Of a stretch of 64,000 nucleotides of DNA, positions 3,645-5,208 are shown one piece after another. A program made the translations under genes and the position numbers. The stretch is from a virus. The notes under the pieces were generated by a model. The model did no database searches. It was not told the origin of the DNA and saw only the letters and a program-made list of their open reading frames with translations. Where the stretch lies: the IMG/VR virus record IMGVR_UViG_3300021957_004906, positions 62,001-126,000 of that record; one strand, 5' to 3'. Position 1 is the stretch's first letter, and every line of letters starts with the position of its first letter.

Positions 3645-3652
3645 TATTTATA
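3645..3652 (-). promoter_or_regulatory. Late promoter for the tape measure gene
   Basis: Perfect T4 late box TATAAATA read on the minus strand, about 43 bases upstream of the start codon at 3602. It shares the divergent intergenic gap with the plus-strand box at 3623-3630. Confidence 0.7.
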
Positions 3653-3661
3653 GGAAAAAAC

Positions 3662-4498
3662 ATGAGTAATCCATTAGACGGGTTCTACAGAACCAAAGAA
3701 ATTTATGTAAAGTTACCTACACAGGGAAAATGGTATACTGATCCTCCACATTTAACTAATGCCGGAGAGATTGGTGTATATCCAATGACAATGAGAGATG
3801 AAATGTTACTAAGTGTTCCTGATGCTTTGTATAACGGCGAAAGTTTATTTGAGCTTTTTGCTAGTATTTGTCCTGATATTAAAGATCCTTACGAACTTTG
3901 TAGTCCAGATGTTGATGTATTATTACTTGCAGCAAAAGCAGCAACATATGATAACAAACTAGCAGTAACATCTGCTTGTCCAAAATGCAATGAAGAAAAC
4001 ACATACGAAATTGATTTAGCCAGTGTATTAAGTAAAATCAAAGTTATTGAAGAAGGTGCTTCATTAGAAATTAATAAGTTATCTGTTGTATTTAAACCCA
4101 ATACATTAGCAGTTGTTAACGCACAATCCATTAAAAATGCAGAAACTGCAAAAATGATACGTGACTTAGGATCAGCTGATATGGATGATGTTGTACGCAC
4201 TGACCAATTTAGAGAAAGTTTATCTAGAACTACCGCTGCTAACATGGCGATATTAGCTGATAGTATACTTACGGTTACAACACCAGATGGCGTGGTGGTA
4301 GAAAACACAACTCATATTATTGAATGGCTTTCCAATAGTGAAAAGGCAGTAGTAGATAAATTGTTAAAGTTTGCAGGAGAGTTAAACCAAAATGGCATAC
4401 AAAATGAGTTTACATTTCAGTGTGCTAATTTGGAATGTGAAGATACATTCACTGCACCTGTAGAATTTAATCCTAGTTTTTTTTTCAGAAAAGAATAG
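3662..4498 (+). CDS. 26: gp26-type baseplate hub / tail assembly chaperone
   Basis: 278 residues of the T4 gp26 family (T4 baseplate protein family); T4 gp26 is 208 residues. The family acts in hub and tail-tube assembly, probably as the chaperone of the tape measure. The N-terminus has the conserved opening FYRTKEIYVKLPTQGKWY. Four cysteines, C106/C109 (CPKC) and C254/C259, are spaced as a likely zinc-binding set. The start ATG has AGGAAAAAAC upstream, the same leader as the gene at 33875. The reading frame ends shortly after a run of nine T (4477-4485), where the -1 frame is open for another 83 codons (see the frameshift feature). The tape measure gene diverges from it. High confidence for the family, moderate for the chaperone role. 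Confidence 0.82.
   Translation: MSNPLDGFYRTKEIYVKLPTQGKWYTDPPHLTNAGEIGVYPMTMRDEMLLSVPDALYNGESLFELFASICPDIKDPYELCSPDVDVLLLAAKAATYDNKLAVTSACPKCNEENTYEIDLASVLSKIKVIEEGASLEINKLSVVFKPNTLAVVNAQSIKNAETAKMIRDLGSADMDDVVRTDQFRESLSRTTAANMAILADSILTVTTPDGVVVENTTHIIEWLSNSEKAVVDKLLKFAGELNQNGIQNEFTFQCANLECEDTFTAPVEFNPSFFFRKE
4477..4486 (+). promoter_or_regulatory. Candidate -1 ribosomal frameshift site in gp26
   Basis: Nine T followed by C. In the gp26 frame the codons are TTT TTT TTC, so T TTT TTC is a canonical X XXY YYZ slippery heptamer allowing both tRNAs to slip back one base. The -1 frame has stops at 4468 and 4474, just before the run, and is then open through the run to the stop at 4735-4737. The zero frame stops at 4496, three codons after the run. 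This is the arrangement of the lambda G/GT tail-chaperone frameshift. Confidence 0.68.
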
Positions 4499-4737
4499 CA
4501 CTCGCATCTAATACTGAAGTTCGAGAAATTATTGATGAGATGAATGAGCAAAGAAAATCATATAGAACGATGATTAATACAATTGCGTTGTATAGTGATG
4601 GATCTTATGAGGTTAGAGATATGTGGAATATGACATTACCGCATATAGAAGAAATACAAGATGTTATAGTAGATAAAAATAAGAAAGAATCTGACGCAGC
4701 AAAAGCAGCATCTGGCAGAACAACTAAGACATTTTAG
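4486..4737 (+). CDS. C-terminal (T-like) extension of gp26 made by -1 frameshift
   Basis: This -1 frame has no start codon until the ATG at 4540, but it is open from 4477. Slippage at the T run would fuse about 275 residues of gp26 to 83 more, giving a product of about 358 residues. The extension begins QKRIALASNTEVREIIDEMN and is highly charged and helical. It ends in a lysine/alanine-rich tail (KKESDAAKAASGRTTKTF). If read alone it would be a 65-residue protein from ATG 4540, in the place T4 has gene 51. No Shine-Dalgarno-like sequence is obvious before 4540, and the frame stays protein-like upstream of that ATG, both of which favour the fusion. The fusion is inference. Confidence 0.6.
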   Translation, partial: QKRIALASNTEVREIIDEMNEQRKSYRTMINTIALYSDGSYEVRDMWNMTLPHIEEIQDVIVDKNKKESDAAKAASGRTTKTF

Positions 4738-4856: not shown

Positions 4857-5208
4857 GTTAATAATATAAACATATTATGATTATAATGTTATATGATGGA
4901 TTATTACCTTGTTTTCAGTCGCACTTAGCTCGATAAAGCCAAGTGCAAAAAAAACGAAACGGTCATTACCCCGCTTCCAGTTCGCTCTGTTATAGTGAAA
5001 CCCAATTAGGCAGAGGCGGTCTTGCGCTACCCCTTTACTCACTGCTTAAGACGCAGAAACACCAGATGCTATAACATCAACATTACTGGTTATCCGTGGG
5101 TTACAATGGCACAGTAGAGCCCACTCTTTTGGTTTGATTGCCCTCAGCAAGATCTGTCGGTCCGCAGTAATTACGAACAAACTCAATGCGTTTAATAAGG
5201 AGGGTATA

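Follow-up and report, generated by a model that had tools for sequence, protein, structure and literature searches.

A conserved nine-T site predicted to link two overlapping frames of a gp26-like tail assembly chaperone in a relative of jumbo myoviruses

A T4 gp26-like gene in a 64-kb stretch of DNA from an uncultivated virus (the window, part of a 197,947-base IMG/VR record) is overlapped at its 3′ end by a conserved -1 frame that opens where nine Ts follow one another. As the likeliest reading, the two frames encode the short and the long form of a tail assembly chaperone. Judging from sequence comparison, the run and the conserved -1 frame together very probably constitute a genuine recoding site, whichever mechanism operates on it. 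We favor a ribosomal -1 slip as the main cause of the predicted long form in the window and put the probability of this reading at about 0.65.

The gene occupies positions 3662–4498 of the plus strand and encodes 278 residues, the putative short form (TAC-N). A Shine-Dalgarno-like AGGA (3652–3655, plus strand) lies 7 bases 5′ of its ATG. Both the slippery site and the offset of the frames can be read directly from the letters: T is repeated nine times at 4477–4485 and is followed by C at 4486 (T9C, plus strand), the gp26 frame across the run being AGT TTT TTT TTC AGA AAA GAA TAG, with the stop at 4496–4498, three codons past the run. Two overlapping heptamers are in frame, T_TTT_TTT (4477–4483) and T_TTT_TTC (4480–4486). 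The -1 frame has stops at 4468 and 4474 and is thereafter open until the TAG at 4735–4737. Its 83 post-slip residues (4486–4737, plus strand; QKRIALAS...TKTF) are predicted to be the C-terminal domain of the long form (TAC-NC), and the fusion made by a ribosomal slip is computed to be 358 residues. The earlier note had described the same arrangement, including a -1 frame open from the run through 4734 and a fusion of about 358 residues; its account of the run is correct base for base, and the rest is confirmed.

No other T run in the window is as long, and none but this one reaches 8 Ts. Among the 53 ORFs of at least 120 residues, a scan found 8 in-frame TTTTTT(T/C) heptamers, and only the two overlapping ones of gp26 lead into a -1 frame that stays open beyond 8 codons. 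Base composition predicts 1.5 nine-T runs per shuffled window, and hence the run is not rare in itself. What places the site above chance is its conservation.

Reportedly, Vladimirov, Gautam and Davidson in 2022 identified T4 gp26 and gp51 as the tail assembly chaperones of T4-like phages. The window gp26 protein matches PF12322, the T4 gp26/gp51 family, at 7.7e-13, and PHROG 150 (baseplate hub) at 2.2e-15. The role of that family in chaperoning is described in PMC3004832, and we infer the same role for the window protein. The -1 frame gave no convincing match in the Pfam and PHROG searches that placed gp26. A single PF12322 copy is present in the record, which may be incomplete. The nearest annotated relatives are the jumbo myoviruses PA5oct, 121Q, RaK2, GAP32, Atu_ph07, Phosso, and SCTP-2, at 23–36% identity; blastn against phage records returned zero matches, and a scan of genome contigs returned zero relatives. 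The predicted structure of gp26 has a pLDDT of 84, and that of the -1 domain is a helical hairpin with a mean pLDDT of 83. Foldseek found no relative of either among solved structures, and for the -1 domain, it gave weak viral matches that include small uncharacterised phage proteins and a tape measure chaperone of phage Moogle. The adjoining gene lies in divergent orientation and encodes 594 residues. Its homologues are annotated as virion structural proteins; PHROG and Pfam gave no match for it, and these searches did not establish it as the tape measure protein.

The arrangement is retained over a wide range of phages. An in-frame T_TTT_TTC/T is found at the same place in 241 loci, from jumbo phages to cyanophages and KVP40, and in these loci, the -1 frame overlaps the gp26 frame and is homologous. 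Some contigs are present repeatedly in the locus sets, and removing the repeats leaves 208 distinct sequences, in which the run is six Ts in 169, nine in 36, seven in 2, and eight in 1. All of the first 27 loci had the in-frame heptamer and an overlapping -1 frame of shared pattern, and the site is present in 122 of 123, 80 of 80, and 47 of 47 loci of larger sets. Conservation extends to the bases themselves. In all 25 lineages less than 60% identical, TTT is the first Phe codon, and the codon that precedes the run has a constant final T although the amino acid it specifies varies. The chance of a constant xxT.TTT over the 25 lineages, given the codon usage of each gene, is ~10^-9.6, a rough figure that treats the lineages as independent. 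The -1 frame, for its part, shows the marks of a coding sequence: in most close pairs, change is mainly third-position or synonymous, the L258/L283 pair being an exception. The earlier note had proposed a G/GT-type -1 pair and looked to relatives for conservation of the slippery run and the offset. Both are kept in these loci, and the proposal is supported by the PF12322 match, by the conserved site and offset, and by the conserved -1 domain.

Relatives in which the frames are fused or separate, which the same note regarded as contrary cases, do exist, in T4 (see below) and in the cyanophage-like locus L110, but they are isolated exceptions. L110, the sole failure in the set of 123, has a 2-base deletion that converts TTTTTTCGG to a TTTTTGG type (L110:2192-2215), and its frames are fused in frame exactly at the slippery site. 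This fusion may be real, or it may be an assembly error.

In the phylogenetic tree, which is unrooted, the 22 representatives with nine Ts form one clade with support of 100/100. As all other groups have T6C, T9 is most simply explained by one gain. Exactly T9C is found in 47 of 47 loci of this window clade, for which codon usage gives a chance of ~10^-8 to 10^-9.6; one of the two scan patterns required three Phe codons (TTC allowed), which favored long-run members, and the second did not. The window clade also lacks a downstream stem. At 4487–4570 (plus strand), the region that carries a stimulatory stem in other clades, none was detected in the window (z = +1.1, or -0.1 with synonymous shuffling), nor in the 34–35 distinct sequences of its clade (mean z -0.14 and +0.02).

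The largest sister clade, in contrast, has T6C and a stem. In this clade (around L006, L009, and L159-L238), the 5′ arm of the stem starts ~6 nt past the heptamer, its sequences being GGCTTTTGACT, GGATCTTA, GGATCCTAACT, GGCTCCTTAGCC, and GGCTTTCGACG, and the distance to the complementary arm varies. Folding is strong, with a mean z of -3.5 for dinucleotide shuffles (n = 65) and -3.25 for synonymous shuffles. In a long-range version of the stem, 98.5% of cells pair, and two-sided changes occur at 4 of 9 pairs. This covariation was reached in 0 of 500 shuffles, and slid controls are also far below it, although kinship can lift sequences above shuffles in such a test. RNAalifold gave no consensus for the entire stem clade, since the 3′ arm lies at differing distances; subgroups fold well. 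Cyanophages and KVP40 are intermediate (mean z -1.9 to -2.0) and have GGAG/GAGG-like bases 8–14 nt upstream. The 15 distinct sequences of the RaK2-like clade have no nested stem (mean z ~0), yet T6C is kept; loci of this type are L011, L014-L018, L020, L023, L025, and L026. What appears to be new here, going by these comparisons, is the existence of a stem-free clade with invariant T9C whose largest sister clade pairs T6C with a strongly selected stem.

The proposed scheme is as follows. Expression of 3662–4498 would yield the short chaperone, and in a minority of expression events, a -1 shift on T9C, with reading continued to 4737, would yield the 358-residue long form with its extra helical domain. 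Should the pair behave as lambda gpG/gpGT does, abundant short copies and a few long ones would cover the tape measure protein and bring in subunits of the tail tube. The shift itself would consist of the ribosome backing up one base on U_UUU_UUC, or on the overlapping U_UUU_UUU. We infer that the fusion is produced and that the ribosome is the slipping machine. For the family, ribosomal -1 shifting is argued from the conserved heptamers, the short runs, and the stems of relatives. That is, most relatives have only six Ts, too short for typical polymerase slippage, and T6C with a stem some six bases downstream, as in the largest clade, is the layout of ribosomal -1 sites.

In the window clade itself, T9 without a stem fits polymerase slippage equally. 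RNA polymerase might add one U, or drop two, on T9, and the fused mRNA would then be read normally. Nine Ts without a stem, invariant in the clade whose largest sister has T6C and a stem, make this a live alternative, though one to which we give clearly less credence than to the ribosome. The fusion sequence offers no discrimination: it is computed to be unchanged whether the ribosome slips -1 or the polymerase adds one U. Many bacterial genomes avoid slippage-prone runs once these reach nine A/T, and transcriptional slippage is employed by Thermus dnaX, with nine As, and by Shigella mxiE, with a U run (PMC1088944); the feature of nine or more A/T at a frame junction is present here as well. 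Against the polymerase is the retention of the ribosomal heptamers in frame, as in all relatives. Moreover, the RaK2-like T6C phages lack a nested stem despite having six Ts, and so the absence of a stem is, alone, no pointer to the polymerase. It is conceivable, if somewhat doubtful, that the window clade swapped ribosomal frameshifting at T6C plus stem for polymerase slippage at T9, with the same two proteins kept. Such a takeover would be a dnaX-like switch of mechanism within one phage tail chaperone family.

Accounts that dispense with slippage fare far worse. The -1 frame could be a separate gene, translated from an internal start or by reinitiation past the gp26 stop, and records of 121Q, GAP32, BF, Vibrio 2.275, and others do annotate a small protein there; in many cyanophages, an ATG stands 3 codons into the -1 frame. 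Nevertheless, we consider this very improbable: no usable start precedes the point at which homology and the open frame set in, namely the slippery run, and the slippery bases are preserved at synonymous positions. In the window clade, ATG, GTG, and TTG are all absent from the first 30 codons of the -1 frame in 18 of 35 sequences, and a Shine-Dalgarno-like start occurs in that interval in 0 of 35. An independent gene was rejected on these grounds. More improbable still is a homopolymer assembly error that hides one uninterrupted frame. A nine-base run is error-prone, and L110 is fused, but T9 recurs in all of the window-clade loci, which come from many assemblies, and the other relatives show the same offset with mostly six Ts, a less error-prone length. 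It was rejected because the offset is the same across many records. A chance overlap of the frames was likewise rejected, the site and the -1 frame being kept throughout the 241 loci.

T4 is organized differently from the window. PF12322 is found twice in T4 and once each in S-PM2, P-SSM4, HTVC008M, and KVP40; it is found once in 16 of 17 jumbo records, SCTP-2 being missed by the profile. The T4-type gp26 ends TTC TTT GAG, without a heptamer. In hhalign comparisons with the C-terminus of T4-type gp51, the cyanophage -1 domain scored 93% (E 3.5e-7), and the jumbo -1 domain gave a weaker match of 51% (E 1.5e-4). T4 gp51 thus resembles a long form in a permanently fused state, and T4 gp26 resembles the short form. 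A passage in the PRFect paper (PMC10274946) summarises Vladimirov 2022 in the same terms. The earlier note had taken the separate T4 genes 26 and 51 as the equivalents of the two frames. The first half of that equation stands, gp26 being the apparent short form, but gp51 would be a fused long paralogue and not the downstream frame alone. The window gp26 protein and both T4 proteins belong to PF12322, and gp51 appears to correspond to the predicted long form; T4 differs in having two PF12322 genes and a gp26 without a slippery site, in place of the single gene with a shift site seen in the window. Frameshifting of tail chaperones is widespread, and PMC5009743 names T4 as an exception. As the shift site is almost universal in the wider T4-like family, whose members range from cyanophages to jumbo phages, the two-gene state of T4 looks derived.

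Frameshifting in tail chaperones, poly-T sites in T4-like phages included, has already been reported, and its principle is known. Like lambda gpG/gpGT, the window pair consists of a short protein and a -1 long form that diverge near the gene end, with a small C-terminal domain that has no start of its own. The lambda slippery site differs from T9C; in addition, the window gp26 is a member of the T4 family, its gene is oriented divergently to the adjoining one, and no tape measure gene was identified adjacent to it. The Vandenendeviridae/Andersonviridae chaperone (PMC12846349) also has a poly-T -1 site that ends the short form, and a downstream frame misannotated as separate. Its conserved GTTTTT is a shorter poly-T than T9, and the likeness drawn here is one of site. 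Part of the same paper cites poly-T shift sites in T4-like phage chaperones as known. The dnaX gene offers a third parallel, as one gene with two solutions: ribosomal frameshifting in E. coli, with a short run, and transcriptional slippage on nine As in Thermus (PMC1088944). The window differs in having its run of T rather than A, in a gene that belongs to a phage, and with a polymerase step that is hypothetical. Between them, the T6C-plus-stem and stemless T9 clades provide a natural contrast of two routes to one and the same protein ratio.

In most of the annotated records inspected (L010-L026, L033, L034, and L037), a hypothetical protein of its own is entered for the -1 domain. That protein probably represents the C-terminal part of the long chaperone, and many more records may be affected. 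The long form lies hidden in this way in many public genomes.

A neighboring stretch of the window, 4882–5208 on the minus strand, has no gene call and lies between the -1 frame and the next minus-strand ORF. Neither Rfam nor tRNA searches matched it. Its DNA is 82–88% identical in L248, L005, L253, L268, and others (69–75% in the most distant), and the gp26 proteins of the same relatives are just ~45–55% identical. The minus strand folds better than the plus strand (-90 vs. -77), with two-sided changes at 17 of 72 pairs, and the sequence suggests a candidate structured RNA. A similarly placed intergenic stretch of ~500 bases, likewise with no Rfam or tRNA match, is found in 121Q, Munch, GAP32, CBB, BF, and Hallingskeid (L011:3724-4200, with counterparts in L016, L018, L020, L021, and L025), where its DNA is 69–76% identical.
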